From Albula goreensis (Eukaryota; Chordata; Actinopteri; Albuliformes; Albulidae): DNA of 64,000 nt. The position numbers and the translations under genes are program-made. Shown in pieces: positions 8,210 to 58,600 of the stretch (position 1 is its first letter; every line of letters starts with the position of its first letter). The stretch lies in the NCBI GenBank assembly GCA_022829145.1, contig CM040743.1, positions 25,828,646 to 25,892,645 on the forward strand, written 5' to 3'. The notes below the pieces were generated by a model, which was not told where the DNA came from, searched no databases, and saw only the letters and a list, made by a program, of their open reading frames with translations.

Positions 8210-9808
8210 TTAGTCATCATCAAACTTGATTTTCTTTCCCTGGAAGACTGTAATTTGTGCTTGCTGTTCTTTCCGTCGTTTGCTGGCCTCCCACGAGGGG
8301 TGGAGAGCTTGTTGGGAAGGGATGGAAGGTTTCCCAACTGAAGGTTTGTGGTCCTTTTGCTTCTCAAACTGTGTGTTGCCCCTTGCTGCAGCTGGGCTCC
8401 TGTCAAGTGAATAGGGGCCACCACGTGGATTCTGTCTCTGAAACTTCGACGGCATTGGTTTTCTGTCAAATTTCTGAAATCTGGGTGGTTTCTTAGTTTC
8501 ATCGGGCCCTCTGTTCTTATTCTGGAATCTCTGCTGCTTAAAGAAGCCACCAGGCCTCCCCCCACGGTTTCCAGGGGCCCCTCTTGCCCCTGACAATTTA
8601 CCGCAGAAGACTGACTCTAGCTTCATTGCTTTGGAGTTCTGTTTCCCTTCAGTTTTAGCATTTGGCTCTTTGGACACGGCAGCATTTTTGTCACGGGTAC
8701 TCTTTTTCTCCTCTTCTACAACAGGGTCAGTTTTCCTCTTTTTGAATTTACTCACTTTGCCCAGAAAGAAGTCATCCTCATCGCCGCTGTCCTCAGACTG
8801 GGATGACTGCTTACAAAACCGCTCCTCAGTGCTGTCATCAAAGTACTCCTTCTCTTCCTCATTGTCAGACAGCTCCAAATCACTTTCTACTTCCTCCTTC
8901 TCTTGCTTCTTCTTCTTCTCCTCCTCCTCTTTCTTCTCACTCTTCTTGCCCTCAGGGCCCTGGACCTTCACTCTGACATCTGGACAATTTTGTTGAGATT
9001 GTCCTTTTTGTGATGATTTCTGGGTTTCTTTTATCATAACAGGAGGTGTTTGTGAGCCCATGTGGGCAGTACAAGGAGACTTTTCTGGTTGACTGAGGAG
9101 CTCTAATTTTTCTCCAGGCTGCACCTCAGCTTCTATATCTTCCTCTGTTGCCTTTACTTCGGCTTTTGTGGCAGTAACTTCAACATCCTTGCCAGTTAGA
9201 TCAGCAGGCCCACCTTTAAAAGGACTCAAGTTGTCTTTAATAAAACCAATCCCTTCCTCTTCCTCTGAATCCTTCTCCTCCTCCTCCTCCTCCTCCTCCT
9301 CCTCCTCATTATCATCGTCATCATCATCATTATCATCATCATCATCATCCCCTACATCATCTGAATGCAGAGTGTCCATCTTTGTCTCTACAGGTTTTGC
9401 TGTCTTTGAGGCCTTCCCCTCAGCAGGCTTCCTCCGCTCTTCTTTGAAGGCCTTGATTGCTGCTTTGATCTCCAAGATCCTCTTGTTGATCTGTGGATGT
9501 GTAGCAATGCGTGCGATTGCTCGCTCCGTCAATGTGGAGCTGGGGTTCTTGCATACCTTTTCAAAGCTGAGGTTCTTCATCAAAGCAGCTTTTGTGACAT
9601 GGTCAGGCTTCAAAAGCTTCATTTCATGAATCTCCTCCAACAGTCTGGCTGCTCGTCGCTGGTTTTTCTCCACCTCTGACTCATTCCCCTTCTTCTTCTT
9701 CAGCTTAGCAATTTGTCTGGTGAGTTTCCGAATAATCAATGCCCTGGCCTTCTTCACCTCCTTCCTCATTTTCACCACCTCATTGTTTAAATTCAGCACC
9801 TCTGCCAT
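8210..9808 (-). CDS. srfbp1: Serum response factor-binding protein 1 (BUD22 family), single coding exon
   Basis: SRFBP1 (p49/STRAP) is the vertebrate relative of yeast Bud22, a nucleolar factor in small-subunit ribosome maturation; the vertebrate protein was also described as an SRF cofactor. The start is the ATG at 9806-9808, giving MAEVLNLNNEVVKMRKEVKK, which agrees with the family N terminus. The two codons before it (GTG AAG) belong to the 5'UTR. The protein has 532 residues. A basic coiled coil fills about residues 1-125, with the conserved LTERAIARIATHP segment. A run of aspartates and glutamates lies at about 150-190, then charged low-complexity sequence, then an RG-rich C-terminal part ending KIKFDDD, the family signature. 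No intron interrupts the coding region. A 3' splice site at about 9829 implies one 5'UTR intron. Confidence 0.93.
   Translation of the reverse strand: MAEVLNLNNEVVKMRKEVKKARALIIRKLTRQIAKLKKKKGNESEVEKNQRRAARLLEEIHEMKLLKPDHVTKAALMKNLSFEKVCKNPSSTLTERAIARIATHPQINKRILEIKAAIKAFKEERRKPAEGKASKTAKPVETKMDTLHSDDVGDDDDDDNDDDDDDNEEEEEEEEEEEKDSEEEEGIGFIKDNLSPFKGGPADLTGKDVEVTATKAEVKATEEDIEAEVQPGEKLELLSQPEKSPCTAHMGSQTPPVMIKETQKSSQKGQSQQNCPDVRVKVQGPEGKKSEKKEEEEKKKKQEKEEVESDLELSDNEEEKEYFDDSTEERFCKQSSQSEDSGDEDDFFLGKVSKFKKRKTDPVVEEEKKSTRDKNAAVSKEPNAKTEGKQNSKAMKLESVFCGKLSGARGAPGNRGGRPGGFFKQQRFQNKNRGPDETKKPPRFQKFDRKPMPSKFQRQNPRGGPYSLDRSPAAARGNTQFEKQKDHKPSVGKPSIPSQQALHPSWEASKRRKEQQAQITVFQGKKIKFDDD
9274..9349 (-). 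repeat. srfbp1: Triplet repeats coding for the SRFBP1 acidic tract
   Basis: On the plus strand there is a run of CTC triplets (about 9274-9307) followed by a run of ATC triplets with a few substitutions (about 9308-9349). Read on the coding strand they give a glutamate run and an aspartate run. They stay in frame and are probably length-variable. Confidence 0.85.
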
Positions 9809-9828
9809 CTTCACTTTTATCTTTGTTC

Positions 9829-35575: not shown

Positions 35576-38500
35576 GTATGGGTATTAACCTTCTTTCCAT
35601 TTATCAAAACCCCACAATGTTCTCTCAATTGCTCTTCTATGTTTGACTGGCTACCCTCATATTTTGAGGATCATTAATAGTGAAAACGCATTCTCAGTCC
35701 AGTATAAATCAATGCATGTAATGGAAACAAATATTCTTACACTTTTCTGAGTTATCAATTTTCCTTCACATAGCACAAATGTAAAAACAGGTAAAAATCT
35801 ATACTGTATCCTGTTTGTAGATTTTATAAAATGTAAAAACATTTAGCAAATTTCCATATGAGAACCAGGGAACCATTAACTCCTGTCGTATGCCAGCTGC
35901 ATCCCTGGTTGTAACCTGTGAGCTTCACTAAAGCAGATCAATAAAAAAGAATCTAATTAGACTTGTGGGCCTGTTCTAAATTAAAACGCCACTTTGTTAA
36001 ATGGTAATGAATCACTTTGAAATCAGCTGTTAAATTCTTAATTAGGAAGTAAATGCAGTGAATTGTTTTGGGGGTGCTTGCTGATTGAAATGTGATACTA
36101 ATAGTAATAATTGTGCCTGCGGCGTAAAGAAGTGAGGCTGCTTCCTTTGCGCTGGGCCCAGCTTGTTTAATAATTGGAAGCTCTTTTTAAATGGTACCTG
36201 AAATTGCAAATAAAGTACATCACAGGTTACCTAGTAAAATGTTATGTTAAAACCACCATGATGTTCTCTGTGACCAACTTGCACAAACTAAAGCAATATT
36301 CACTGGTCTAAATTCATAATACAATGAAAGTTCAAACACCCATTTAGAATTTCAGTGTCTTTATATTACAGTTTATTTATAATTTATAGGTAGTAATATA
36401 TGCCTTTAATTAAAAATGGTAGGTAAATACATCATGTGAACGTAGGAAATGGGGAATATGTGACATGATTTAGAAGTTTCTCTTATAAAGCTTTAATAAT
36501 CTGAGGCTCAGATCTGTTTATAATTGTCAAGTTGTGATGAGTTGTACACCACAGACAGACATAGAGACAGAGAGTGATACTTACTGCTGCAATCATGATA
36601 GCATTATCCAGAAAGCCAAACCCAATGAAGGGGATGGCATTGTGCAGAAGTACTGCAATGAAAAACAGAATTCATTATGATTTGAGAAATCATTATGATA
36701 ATCCCAAATCACTACTATAACTGCACATTGCATGTGTGATATTTTGCAAACTGTATGTGGATATGTACATTATATATTTATCACTGTGTCTTGCAATATT
36801 TTATGGATTAAAGATGTAGTTGTCTGTGATCTGCAACCCAGCTCAAAACAAACATTTTTTTTACAATACTATGTTAGGTTGTCACTTAAAAATGAAAAAA
36901 ATGTAACGTAACAATTAAAATGTTTTGACTTCAAAGGTAGGGACAAGGTACTGCATATGATAAAACAGCCTTTGAAAGTAGCTGCCATGCAGGATAACCC
37001 ATGAAGCAGTCATTTCATACAGCAGTGTAATGATTACTTAGAATCAGAGTATTCATTAGCATCTGTCTTCCCTGCAGTTCTGTAGACTTAAAGCACCAAG
37101 CCAGCAGGGACAGAAAAGTTGGCTTGCATGATGTCTGGAAGCTCAGATGCAACTTTACAGCTGGGAGAGCCATGCATTGAGAACTACTGCTATACACCGC
37201 GTTCCAAATTATTATGCAAATTGTATTTAAGTGTCATAAAAGTTACATTTTTTGTTTTTCAATTAAACTCATGGATGGTATTGTGTCTCAGGGCTCTTTG
37301 GATCACTGAAATCAATTTCAGACACCTGTGATAATTAGTTTGCCTGGTGAGCCCAGTTAAGGGAAAAACTACTTAAGAAGGATGTTCCACATTATTAAGC
37401 AGACGACCATTTTCAAGCAATATGGGAAAGAAAAAGGATCTCTCTGCTTCTGAAAAGCGTGAAATAGTTAAGTGCCTTGGACAAGGTATGAAAACCTTAG
37501 ATATTTCACAAAAACTTAAGTGTGATCATCGCACTATTAAGAGATTTGTGGCTGATTCAGAGCACACACGGGTTCGTGCAGATAAAGGCACAGTGAGGAA
37601 GGTTTCTGCCAGACAAATACGTCGGATTAAGAGAACAGCTGCTAAAATGCCATTACAAAGCAGCAAACAGATATTTGAAGCTGCTGGTGCCTTTGGAGTC
37701 CCAAGAACTTCAAGGTGTAGGATCCTCCAGAGGCTTGCAGTTGTGCATAAACCTTCTATTCGGCCACCCCTAAACAATGCTCACAAGCAGAAAAGGCAGC
37801 AGTGGGCCCAGAAGTACATTAAGACTAATTTTCAAACAGTCTTGTTCACTGATGAGTGCCGTGCAACCCTGGATGGTCCAGATGGATGGAGTAGTGGATG
37901 GTTGGTGGATGGCCATCATCTCCCAACAAGGCTGCGACGCCAGCAAGGAGGTGGCGGAGTCATGTTTTGGGCTGGAATCATGGGGAGAGAGCTGGTGGGC
38001 CCCTTTAGGGTCCCTGAAGGTGTGAAAATGACATCTGAAAAGTATGTGGAGTTTCTGACTGACCACTTTCTTCCATGGTACAAAAAGAAGAACCGTGCTT
38101 TCCGTGGCAAAATAATCTTCATGCATGACAATGCACCATCTCATGCTGCAAGGAATACCTCTGCATCATTGGCTGCTATGGGCATAAAAGGAGAGAAACT
38201 CATGATGTGGCCCCCATCCTACCCTGACCTCAACCCTATTGAGAACCTTTGGAGCATCCTCAAGCAAAAGATCTATGAGGGTGGGAGGCAGTTCACATCC
38301 AAACAGCAGCTCTGGGAGGCTATTCTGACATCCTGCAAAGAAATCCAAGCAGAAACTCTCCAAAAACTCACAAGTTCAATGGATGCAAGAATTTTGAAGC
38401 TGCTATCGAATGAGGGGTCCTATGTCAAGATGTAACTTGACCTGTTAAGATGTTTTTGATTGAAATAGCTTTTGATTTCAGTAAATATGACCTCCTAATG

Positions 38501-41500
38501 CTGTAAATTCAACAAATGACCATTTTCAGTTCTTTACAACCTATAAATTATTTTGAAACTCTGTTGTGCGTAATAATTTGGAACAGTACATTTTAAGTTT
38601 TTTATTTTTGAAAAAAATACTGTCATCATTGGGAGGTTTGTTCAATAAAATTCAAATTATACTCTAACGGTTAATGACTTGAAAATTATGTTGACTGTCA
38701 TTTGCATTGACTATTTAGAAAATTTGAGAAAAATATCATTTGCATAATAATTTGGAACGCAGTGTAGAAGCAAATTCCAGAAAATAAACATTTCTAGCTG
38801 ACTGACATAAATTCACAAGACGGATAAGCAACATAACAGTCAGGACTCTTGTTCTACGTCACTTTTAAGTGTGCGTTTTCAAGTTAATTCAACAGCCGAT
38901 CCATTTCACTAGAGACCGAAGTTCTACCAGAATGATAGATGTCTGCTGTCTAAATATAAAGTCAGTTGAAAACAGTGTTCATACCACAGACTCACTTTAA
39001 ATTTGCTGCAATGCAACAAATAAATAGTTACTGAGCCTGGGGAAATGGTTCCGTTCTACGATGTCAACATTATTACAATATGTAAGGATGATGCGGTTAA
39101 CAGTAGAGTATGAAACTCTGTTATCCCCAGAGAACTTATTTAGCATCTGTGTCTTGGGCTTTGACTTCAGCACCAAGGGGAAGAGATGCTGAAGTCCCAG
39201 AGCAGCTAACGCTACAATACAGTCAAGTAGGTGAGACTGAGTGCACTGACACGTTGAATATAAAACCGCGCAGAGTGTGTTGCTGGCCATATGAATACCA
39301 TGGGGCATCAACATGTAGCTCGGACGGAAGTTCAACAGAACATTGATTGTTCTGATTGGCTGGAGGAGGTAACGAAGAGGAATACATCTCCCTTCATGAA
39401 ACGTGCTTGCCAATATGAGAAAGGTAAACTCTGAATAACGACTTCCTCTTACCGTATCTCAGCTGAGCTGCAGTGGGTGGGGCCATTTCCAGTTGTTCTG
39501 AAAAAATACATGAAAAAAATTAATTCAGAATAAATATAGCCCAACACTGTTTTCTCAGCCTTTGTGAATTGAGAGCAAGAATAACATTTTTATTAACGTC
39601 ATAACTTACAGTTGCCACATGATATGCAACTCAGAATTATCTTTTATACAGCAACCAGGCAGCATGGCACAAGGAACATCATCCCACGGCACAAAATTGA
39701 GACACCTAATGTTAACACCATGCGCAGCCAATTGGTACCACTTATCTCTTTCTGCCATCCTGACATCTGATACGTTTGCATGCCACACAGTCCACGGCTC
39801 CGCAAACCACATCGCTGTAATAACTGACCGAAATGTCTTTTGAGCACTTAGATGAATGATAAATGAATCCAGCTTTTGTTCGTTACACATCATAAATCAC
39901 ATTTATAACAGACGAGAAGCGTCCAAACTATATTACAGAACCGCAGAATCGGGCATATAAAGACTTTCACAGTATATCTTAGTCTACACTTCTCCTGACC
40001 AAGACGGAAGATTCTGCAGCTTATTGCTGCCTAGGGCCCAGAAAAAAAGGCTTGTGCTTTATTTGTGTGTGTGCAGCAATTTCTGGATCCAAGTAATGGT
40101 GCAGCTGAGCAGAGTGCAGTCTGGGAAGGGATCCAGCGTGGTGCGGGTGATATATGAGGGAGAAGCATTACAGCAATCTAATGATGTAGACACACAACCA
40201 TATACTGATGCACAATGTTCTTGCAAAAAAAAAAAAAAACAACACCACATAAAACACAAAGTGGTATAAATCAGTGCTCGCCAACCTCCATCATAGAAAC
40301 GCGTGTAAAAGCTGGGCACTTCCTCTAGTAATGCGGAGGCTATTTTTAACACAAGGAACTAATTACAAGTCTATGGGCTACATTCAATGAAATACGCCTA
40401 GTGGGCATACCAATTCAATCAAAATGCACTTTGGTCAGCTGAAAGTACAAATGCTATTCCATTTTAAAATGAGAACACATTCATAAGGATATGCTTGCTT
40501 GTCTCCAATAAAACATAACTTACTCAAAGAACTACTCGATTGTTGCAAAGGAAACTTTTTATTTAATTGTATATACCCTCAAAGAGATTAAGTGAATTTC
40601 ATTGAATTTGGCCCCCTATCTATATAGGTGAGGGAGAATTGGTTTCCAGACTGGGCATAAAAACAGGATGAGACAGGTTGAAAAGCGCAGAACTTCAGCA
40701 AACAATTTTGACAACAAAGGCAGTGAAGCATGCAACTGCATTGATTGGGGTTTATAAGTCCAAAGCTGGTTAATTATTTTTTTAAACTTCTCAGCTGATA
40801 TGTTGCTATGTCTGCACATCCAAAAAGTCTGATACAGGTTCTGGATCAAGGGTAAATCATATGAAAGAGGATATTATCTGCACACTCTTTAAAGCATCCA
40901 AAAATTAAATTTGAATACATGAAAAGAAGCAGGACAATTGCTTGATCCCATGGGGATTTTTGTCTGGTGAGAAACATCAGAGCTTTGGTTAGATCTGCAA
41001 CTGATATTCCCACAGCAAAGCTGAGATGGAGACAAGTGCATCTGTCTTTCACAGCTAATTCCACAGAGCACATGAAGACTCATACATCAACTTGACAGCC
41101 ATTTGAAAGCCACCGTAAATGTAGAACATACTTCAAATATCAAATAAATTTTTTACACAAAATTGTTACAAAGCAGTTTGTCGGAAATCCTCATACACAT
41201 AGGTATATCTCCCAACCTTTCAGTAAGCAGTAACTGATAGGAATAAAACCCTAGTATATCACACATATAACTATATTCATCATGGTTGTTTAAATTTCAT
41301 ATCTAGATGATTGTTTATTTTGCTACTTACCTGTTCTAATTTATTTTTTGAATTGCCTTATTTTCAGCATCTTGACAAGCAACTGTAGTCAGACTGATTA
41401 TAAAAAACTTCAAATACAGTAGAAATCTATCTAGGAACTCCAAAACTGAGGCAAAATTTTAAATTGTTTTGGCCCAAGTCATATTTTTATTCCCAGAGCA

Positions 41501-55623: not shown

Positions 55624-58600
55624 TCATTCCCCGCTAGAGTCTGTGTCATCATTAATGTAGTCTTCCTCCATGGGTGTTCCACCGTTCTGAGTCCCCCACT
55701 CATCCTCGTCATACTCAATACTGTCATTGTCTTCCAGGAGTTCATTCTCCAGCTCTGGCTCACCTGCGGCTGCCACAGCGTCTGCCCCAGCGGCCTCTGC
55801 AAATTCGCCAGCATTCTCATTGGGGGCAACATAGCCATTGTTGTTGGAAAAGGGGGCACTGTCTCGGGCCTCCTCTTCAATGTACACCTTTTGGTGGCAC
55901 ATGGGACACGTATCCTGGATGTAGAGCCACTTGCGCAGGCAGAGGGCATGAAAATAGTGGTGGCAGGGCGTGAGGCGCGCAGATGTGGCAAACTCCTGGT
56001 AACAGATGGCGCAGACATCCTCAATATCGCGCAGCTGGCTACCCTTGACCTCTGGTAGGGAGTTGATCTTTTTTACAGCAGTCCGCCTGTTGATAAAGGT
56101 CTTCCAGCCGTTCTTAGCCTGCAGGTAGATGTTAAAGTAGGCATGGAGGCACATCATGCAGGCCCGGATCTTGCTGCCAGACTCAAACATCATGGTATAT
56201 GCACCATTACCAAACATGATGACCCCAAAAATGAACTCAATGACATTGCCAGTAGAACGCACATAGTACACATAGTCATCCAGCTTTTCCCAAAGGACGT
56301 TGTAGTAGCCATCAACCATGAAGAGTGTATAAACCGTCAAAGAAACAATGACCTTGAGACAGAGCTCCACGCAAAAAGCGGTGACAGCAAACAACCAGGT
56401 GTTGAGGGCGTAGTGGTGCCAGAGGGCATAGCTGAGCACAATGGGGAGCACAAACAGGCAGAGCGACACCAGGAGGACAGGAAAGTGGCGACGAACAGAT
56501 GAGACGTGGGAGGCACTCAGAGACATGAGGACCGGGTCCGTCATCCCGTGGATGAAATGCAAGATGGCGGTCAGCAGAAGGCACATGTTGCGACTGAGCC
56601 TCACCAGCCTCTCCTCTGGGTCCAGGCCACTCAGTCCTGTCTGAAGGGCCAGGATGAAGAACAGGACTGGAGCCACAAAGCCCAGCCGCTTGTCCTCCTC
56701 CTCTGTGGAACCGATGAAAGCCAGGATGCTTAGCCCTAGGTAGTGTGCTATGGAGGAGATGACAGCACTCATGCCCAGCACTGTAAGCGTAGAGTCACAG
56801 CCACTGATGATGAGGTTGCTCAGCAGGTCCCAGAACACGTCCCAGGTCAGATAGGTCTGTTCACCACTTTCATTCCTGACCACCTTAACCACATAGATCA
56901 GAATGATCGCCTGGGCAGTCATACGGGTCAGCCAAAAGACCCGGAGAACATCTGGGAAGCGGATCCTCTTCCAGGTGTCTTCCACCAGCAGCTGTACCCC
57001 GTAGATCCTGTACATGTGCCGGACCAGCAGGAAAACGTAGCGGCAAGAATAGTAGAACCACTTCAGCTTCAGGGTCAGGTATACTGCCGTGTTGACCGCC
57101 AGTACCAGGCCCGAGGCGATGGCCACTAACTGTCGCACATCCACAGGCAGCTCAATTATAAGCCCCCAGATGGGGATCATGATGTCCAAGACCACAAGTG
57201 CCGCAAACACGGACTGGACGTTGAGGAGAAACACATAGCCAATGCCAAACATAAGCTGGACAACGGCCATTGCTAGCCAGAGGGTGGGTCCATTTCGTGG
57301 AAGCAGCCTGAAGCCTAGTGCTGCCTTGTAGTATGCACTGTAGAAGTCTATATGTGAAGTGGCGTAGTAGTTGATCAGGATGGCCACCACTCCCAGGAGC
57401 ACAGCAAGGAAGAGCATGTAGAACCTGAATAGGGCTCTCTGAGACAAGACCAGGACCACACTGGATACCAGAATACCTATAGGGACAGAGGAGCAGCATG
57501 GACGTTATATACCAGTACTCAAGCTGTTTATAGATGCTGATACGGTCTTACATGTAATTTATACAAGTTTTAAATTAAGCATTTGCTTTGACATTTAAAC
57601 ATTTGTTATATCTCAAGGGAAATGAAAGCAGAACATACAGCTTTTGAAAACACCAGTTCAGACATTAAAGCTGTATAAGATACCTTCAAAAACTACTTAC
57701 ATGTTAAATTAATATGACAATGGAAAAATGGAAAAGGCAGTGCTATTATAATGTGCTATGGGATTAGGGTGAACAAAAAGTAAAACCTCAAATTAATTCC
57801 CTCAATTAATTTCCTGATCAAGCTCTCGTGTCAAAGGTCTGATGAGAAGGATATCACTAGCTTTGGTTGCAATTTCTTTGGTTACGTATAATCCAATATT
57901 GGTTGTGTTTCGCAACATGGTCACTAACAGCTTAACCTTTATGTTTAACTGATCAAGATAAGTAAAGCCAAAAGACACTATATAGCAAGTCATGCAAAAC
58001 AGTATTTAAAATAAAATGAAGACAGATGTTCAACTACATAGATGTTTCACATGAACGGCGGAAAGATAACTAGAGAAGTCATGCTAGCACCCACAGTGAA
58101 TGAGGTCGGACCATATTTTTGTCAACCAATGGCCTGGACACTGGTCTGTCATTTTCCAAACTCGGAACTAAATCAATACCGTGTCCACCCTTTACACGAT
58201 TCTAGGGCTTGCTAATGTCACTGTCCTTTTGGGCAGTTTGTTTGCACATATATTACGACAGACATGGTAGTAAGCTAACTGACTAGGCCTCCAAATATTT
58301 ACAGTAACATTAAAGTTAGCGCAAGTAGAGTCCTTATCGATAAACCTAACTAGTTAAAGTAACTTTAGAGTCACCACCGAAATCTGATCCCTAATGACTG
58401 AACAAGAATAACCCGACAATATATTAGGTAATGGTTAACACTAGATATCATATCGGTACGTTATCTAAATGATGTCAGTCAATGTCTCTGGGCCTAGCTA
58501 AACAATAAAAAACGTTTTCAGGACAACTGACACGAAAAGTGCTCTGTCATACACATCTGTTACGACGCTGGCTGGATAGCTAGCAGCTAACATTATGTGC

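Follow-up and report, generated by a model that had tools for sequence, protein, structure and literature searches.

A TRT-type (DD37E) Tc1-like element in Albula goreensis and the probable mobilisation in trans of its transposase-dead relatives

The closest described systems are the TRT transposons of Zhang et al. 2016, among them DrTRT (= Mariner-14_DR), and the available text of that work (PMC5630946) gives full-length TRT elements as mostly ~1.55-1.57 kb long, with 27-bp terminal inverted repeats (TIRs), a transposase of up to 338 amino acids and a DD37E signature. Two other groups, Mosquito (DD37E/MS) and L18 (DD37E), are clades separate from TRT according to the accessible passages of PMC10379824, which report MS from invertebrates only. 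A four-repeat arrangement of the element ends, IR/DR, is given as the layout of Sleeping Beauty in the available part of PMC7827188.

Here we analysed a Tc1-like element lying in a 64,000-nucleotide stretch of the Albula goreensis genome (contig CM040743.1; this whole stretch is called the window). TRT-type DD37E elements are already known, and the window copy adds one more ordinary member to this published family. We consider it likely that this is a TRT (DD37E) family whose dead full-length lineages were moved in trans by the transposase of an intact one. This degree of confidence applies to the family assignment together with the trans-mobilisation account, and leaves the window copy's own history to rival explanations that are compatible with both.

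Anatomy and family placement of the element

A complete Tc1-like element of 1,574 bp, with TA at both ends, occupies positions 37193-38766. Its inverted ends (37193-37228 and 38731-38766) extend over 36 nt with 92% complementarity and their outer 27 nt contain one mismatch, so the intact 27-bp repeats and TA duplication claimed in the initial annotation are borne out, the TA being read on both sides. The element is organised as follows:

37193..37228, + strand: left outer terminal inverted repeat, with the TA target duplication at 37193-37194
37384..37401, + strand: inner direct repeat at the left end, matching the terminal core at 16 of 18 nt (IR/DR-type), present in other copies
37422..38435, + strand: open reading frame for a DD37E Tc1-like (TRT-type) transposase of 337 amino acids, identified by Pfam, alignment with Sleeping Beauty and residues D144, D236 and E274
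38567..38584, - strand: inner direct repeat at the right end, matching the terminal core at 17 of 18 nt (IR/DR-type), present in other copies
38731..38766, - strand: right outer terminal inverted repeat, with the TA target duplication at 38765-38766

The first 32 nt of the window copy are the commonest left end among the 37 near-full-length copies of the family (18 of 37), and TA is seen at both ends in 31 of these 37; in the remaining six the match ended short or an end is damaged. Genome-wide, the end-core pattern (at most 2 mismatches) gave 95 matches and its reversed version 0, so its frequency is above chance. The mismatch in the right end is not private decay of the window copy, since copy L010 carries the same base.

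The terminal core occurs four times in the window, where 0.19 occurrences are expected by shuffling, and these four are placed two per element end, at 37201 and 37384 on the + strand and at 38584 and 38758 on the - strand, with spacings of 183 and 174 bp. Two direct repeats per end in an inverted arrangement are characteristic of the Sleeping Beauty type; they are found in other copies too, and the inner repeats are a layout feature additional to what the initial annotation described. They do not evolve measurably slower than the rest of the element (0.83 changes per site on the left and 0.44 on the right, vs ~0.5), and hence it is the layout alone that argues for their function.

Pfam recognised a DDE_3 domain (1.1e-12) in the 337-residue protein, and among solved structures its closest relative is 5cr4, the catalytic domain of Sleeping Beauty (E 1.3e-17). 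D144 (in FTDE), D236 (in HDNA) and E274 (in PDLNPIE) align on the three DDE residues of Sleeping Beauty, confirming the earlier claim of an open frame with all three catalytic residues in place. The D236-E274 spacing is 37 residues, with 3 extra residues before the E relative to Sleeping Beauty. One replacement, S267Y, is private to the window copy and falls on the S of SPDLNPIE: among 43 readable rows, codon 267 is TCC in 39, ACC in 2, CTC in 1 and TAC in the window copy only, and the equivalent position is S in Sleeping Beauty as well. Judged from the residue affected, S267Y has perhaps left the window transposase with reduced or no activity.

Eleven open reading frames of at least 150 amino acids are present in the window, and the 337-residue frame is the sole recognised transposase; a Pfam search of five of the other ten found no transposase. 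Two host genes also lie in the window on the - strand, one at 55624-57459 encoding a TRC8_N plus RING protein, which we take to be RNF139, and one at 8210-9814 encoding a BUD22-domain protein.

Compared by description with published TRT, the window element is best placed in that family, a reading supported by its spacing, its size (1,574 bp, 337 amino acids), its ends (27-bp TIRs with one mismatch, TA) and its side of the protein tree; it appears otherwise ordinary. The TRT motifs (W/F)TDE and Q/HDNA are matched by FTDE and HDNA, while the third, SPD/HLNPIE, reads YPDLNPIE in the window copy and SPDLNPIE in copies L011, L027, L009 and L041. The 37-residue spacing is that of TRT, and differs from the 34 residues of the Sleeping Beauty family and the 38 of Intruder.

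An unrooted tree of one genome plus Sleeping Beauty, from which residues 245-262 (the loop holding the length difference) were left out, placed 16 DD37E-grouped rows on one side and seven DD34E-36E rows, including Sleeping Beauty, on the other, with support of 100/99. Since the split persists without the loop, the spacing of 37 is not a local insertion in a DD34E element of this genome, and the earlier statement that this is not an ordinary DD34E transposon stands; a DD34E element with a simple insertion is ruled out. Relatives on the DD37E side range from ~30-50% to more than 90% protein identity. Outside the window copy's own group, the spacing of 37 is found ungapped and in one piece in L059, L077, L078, L079 and L085; L082, also on the DD37E side, has one extra residue, and L058, L081, L083, L086 and L087 were pieced together from broken matches.

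Two older broken lineages were observed on the DD37E side; their protein identity to the window copy, calculated by segment, is ~55-75% for L058, L059, L077 and L081, and ~25-52% for L078, L079, L082, L083, L085, L086 and L087, several of the latter showing WTDEMRV at the first D. The genome also contains two Tc1 relatives of the DD34E type whose open frames are long, L071 (353 amino acids) and L072 (342 amino acids); in L072 the alignment shows N in place of the second catalytic D. A single-protein query of viral contigs returned 3 pattern matches, none confirmed as relatives.

Copies in the genome and their shared lesions

The genome searched comprises 932 Mb in 208 contigs. DNA matching recovered at least 40 loci (40 scored of 64 candidates), and 14 more were fetched by their end pattern, of which nine were used, giving 49 copies in all; L058-L062, being older lineages or bare end matches, were excluded from the set. 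The whole-element tree contains the 37 near-full-length copies, including the window copy, and thus 37 of 50 alignment rows; the other 13 rows belong to 12 shorter copies, of which L052 takes up two rows, one per piece, and were aligned outside the tree. One of the shorter forms, L056, is an internally deleted, MITE-like copy of 459 bp that keeps both ends.

A full 337-residue frame is found in only three of the 37 near-full-length copies, the window copy, L011 and L027, and the frame of L009 reaches 330 amino acids. Twenty-five of the 37 belong to three dead lineages, each defined by a shared deletion and each forming a single clade in the whole-element tree: a 1-bp deletion at 37603 (18 copies, 16 of them near-full-length), a 10-bp deletion at 37728 (seven copies, six near-full-length) and a 2-bp deletion at 37538 (three copies, all near-full-length). 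Five copies of the 37603 lineage carry an additional 1-bp insertion at 37580 that restores the later frame, and all five contain in-frame stops nonetheless (3 each in L025, L029 and L034; 9 in L031 and L040).

Copies that share a lesion could have arisen by segmental duplication or gene conversion rather than by transposition in trans, and we compared flanks all-against-all (up to 550 bp a side) in 48 of the 49 copies, L052 being left out. Three matched pairs were obtained, and no flank match was found between copies sharing one of the three lesions, which rejects segmental duplication as their source. Gene conversion has some evidence on its side: in L028 and L033, which belong to the lineage with the 2-bp deletion, 37603-lineage markers appear in a short conversion-like patch (window equivalent 37817-37873), and unexpected lesion combinations occur, such as the mosaic L042, which combines the deletions of two lineages, so that some conversion between copies seems to have taken place. 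The markers of the 37603 lineage, however, extend from 37603 to 38566, about 960 bp of the element, and therefore point to descent and not to one converted patch. On these grounds we regard duplication or conversion as a highly improbable origin of the dead lineages.

Because their lesions are shared on unrelated flanks, the dead copies were instead probably mobilised in trans: from standard Tc1/mariner biology, dead copies at new sites would have needed an enzyme supplied from elsewhere. Under the mobilisation account, and by homology with Sleeping Beauty, the TRT transposase would bind each end at its inner and its outer repeat (four sites in all), pair the ends, cut at their outer limits and paste the element into TA. 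Three lineages would have lost their transposase and then moved using the enzyme of an intact lineage, the dead copies would include the youngest insertions, and the functional lineage would have dwindled as transposase-dead full-length copies kept spreading.

A feature of the ends sets the 37603 lineage apart. In 17 of its 18 copies with the deletion, the right inner repeat is identical to the outer repeat over 20 nt, and the same match is found in L044, a member of the lineage whose own deletion removes 37603. The match region corresponds to 38562-38590 of the window and its carriers are 16 tree copies, L044 and L046; it is absent from the mosaic L042 and from the other copies readable there. 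This match may have made the 37603 lineage a better substrate in trans; it could also be chance, being one of 7 substitutions counted on the stem of the lineage. Meanwhile some three open copies may be all that was left of the enzyme source, and among them the window copy is alone in showing a trace of purifying selection. That a dead full-length TRT lineage thereby outcompeted its own autonomous source is a conjecture that we hold to be decidedly unlikely. In a literature search on defective Tc1 copies mobilised in trans, none of the matches listed was a paper on TRT.

Age of the copies and history of the window copy

The closest pairs among the 37 near-full-length copies are L016/L019, with 2 differences in 1,568 sites, and L029/L034, with 3 in 1,570; all four belong to the dead 37603 lineage, and the members of each pair lie on different contigs with unlike flanks. 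The TRT family was thus recently mobile, by the evidence of transposase-dead copies. The window copy differs from its nearest neighbour among the 36 others at 53 of 1,571 sites (3.4%), and its private branch (~0.0215) ranks 31st of 37 counted from the shortest, while every one of the 22 shortest belongs to one of the three dead lineages. Private branches give upper bounds on insertion age, so the long branch of the window copy is no proof of old age, and the ranking favours amplified lineages because branches are short where many sister copies survive. The comparison shows only that nothing found marks the window copy as recent.

The coding changes on the private branch of the window copy, counted with its codon context applied to every row, comprise 10 silent and 10 replacement changes, whereas the tips of the dead lineages have 29 silent among 146 (117 replacement or stop; Fisher P 0.005, or ~0.065 after Bonferroni correction for the 12 branches tested). 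Against the computed neutral silent share of 0.256, the binomial P is 0.016 before correction, and when counting single-copy letters only there are 9 silent vs 8 (P 0.004). The other two open copies, with silent:replacement counts of 3:12 and 2:13, look neutral, and the inner branches outside the dead lineages have a weak silent tilt (30 N : 15 S, 2.9 expected). The silent excess on the window branch is suggestive of purifying selection, and in view of it the window copy may have inserted much later than its branch length implies. In a two-phase fit, the neutral part of this branch was 6-31% depending on the assumptions, with limits of 0-83%.

Two explanations of the window copy's own history were weighed against these data. 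One, which concerns the window copy only, is that it is decaying under pure neutrality and has kept its frame by luck. In its favour, an open frame is found in three of the 12 copies that lie outside the dead lineages, and the branches of two of these three look neutral; the silent excess of the window copy (the Fisher and binomial values above, before correction for the 12 branches) speaks against it, and we consider this explanation rather unlikely. The other, which the initial annotation had proposed in calling the element a candidate for current or very recent activity, is that the window copy is active now or was very recently, having inserted from a functional source without a surviving close copy. 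Its open frame and intact ends, the silent excess with its fitted neutral part of 6-31%, and the need for some recently active transposase to move the dead copies are consistent with such activity. They are countered by the absence of any near-full-length copy nearer than 3.4%, by the private S267Y, by two further open frames among the 11 other copies not in the dead lineages, both on neutral-looking branches, and by the assembly, in which no empty version of the insertion site or second haplotype was found. We consider recent activity of the window copy unlikely. Recent activity is thus established for the family, with its near-identical pairs of dead copies, and unproven for the window copy, which has no near-identical counterpart among the copies found.

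Within the preferred account of mobilisation in trans, the functional lineage, which would have acted as the source of enzyme, is the probable origin of the window copy; this copy would have drifted since, perhaps with reduced or no activity. It may have been a late enzyme source, or a recently decayed one, and the assembly may lack the copy that drove the youngest insertions.

Comparison with described Tc1/mariner systems

It was right to annotate the locus as a well-preserved DD37E/TRT element, and current activity of the window copy is unproven. Whether a transposon copy retains an open reading frame says little about how recently it moved: in this one genome, whose copies can be ordered, the youngest of the insertions found are dead passengers, and the family offers a testable case of takeover by full-length parasites of its own enzyme.

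Mosquito (DD37E/MS; available text of PMC10379824) and L18, compared by description, have the same spacing as the window copy, and Intruder (DD38E), a Tc1/mariner family named by its D-E spacing and likewise compared from the accessible description (PMC7731502), has 38 residues where the window copy has 37. Sleeping Beauty shares the four-repeat IR/DR layout and a homologous DDE domain, but it is a DD34E element, as opposed to the 37 residues here, and lies on the opposite side of the tree branch. With respect to TRT, as presented in the accessible parts of PMC5630946, the window copy has Y in place of S in the SPD/HLNPIE motif, the printed subterminal repeat of DrTRT and the inner repeats found here are, in a by-eye comparison, oppositely oriented, and lineages with shared lesions, present in this genome, are not among the features described in those parts. 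TRT and the window copy have in common the DD37E spacing, the element length, the 27-bp TIRs, the TA target and the FTDE and HDNA motifs, and their transposases are 338 and 337 amino acids long, respectively.
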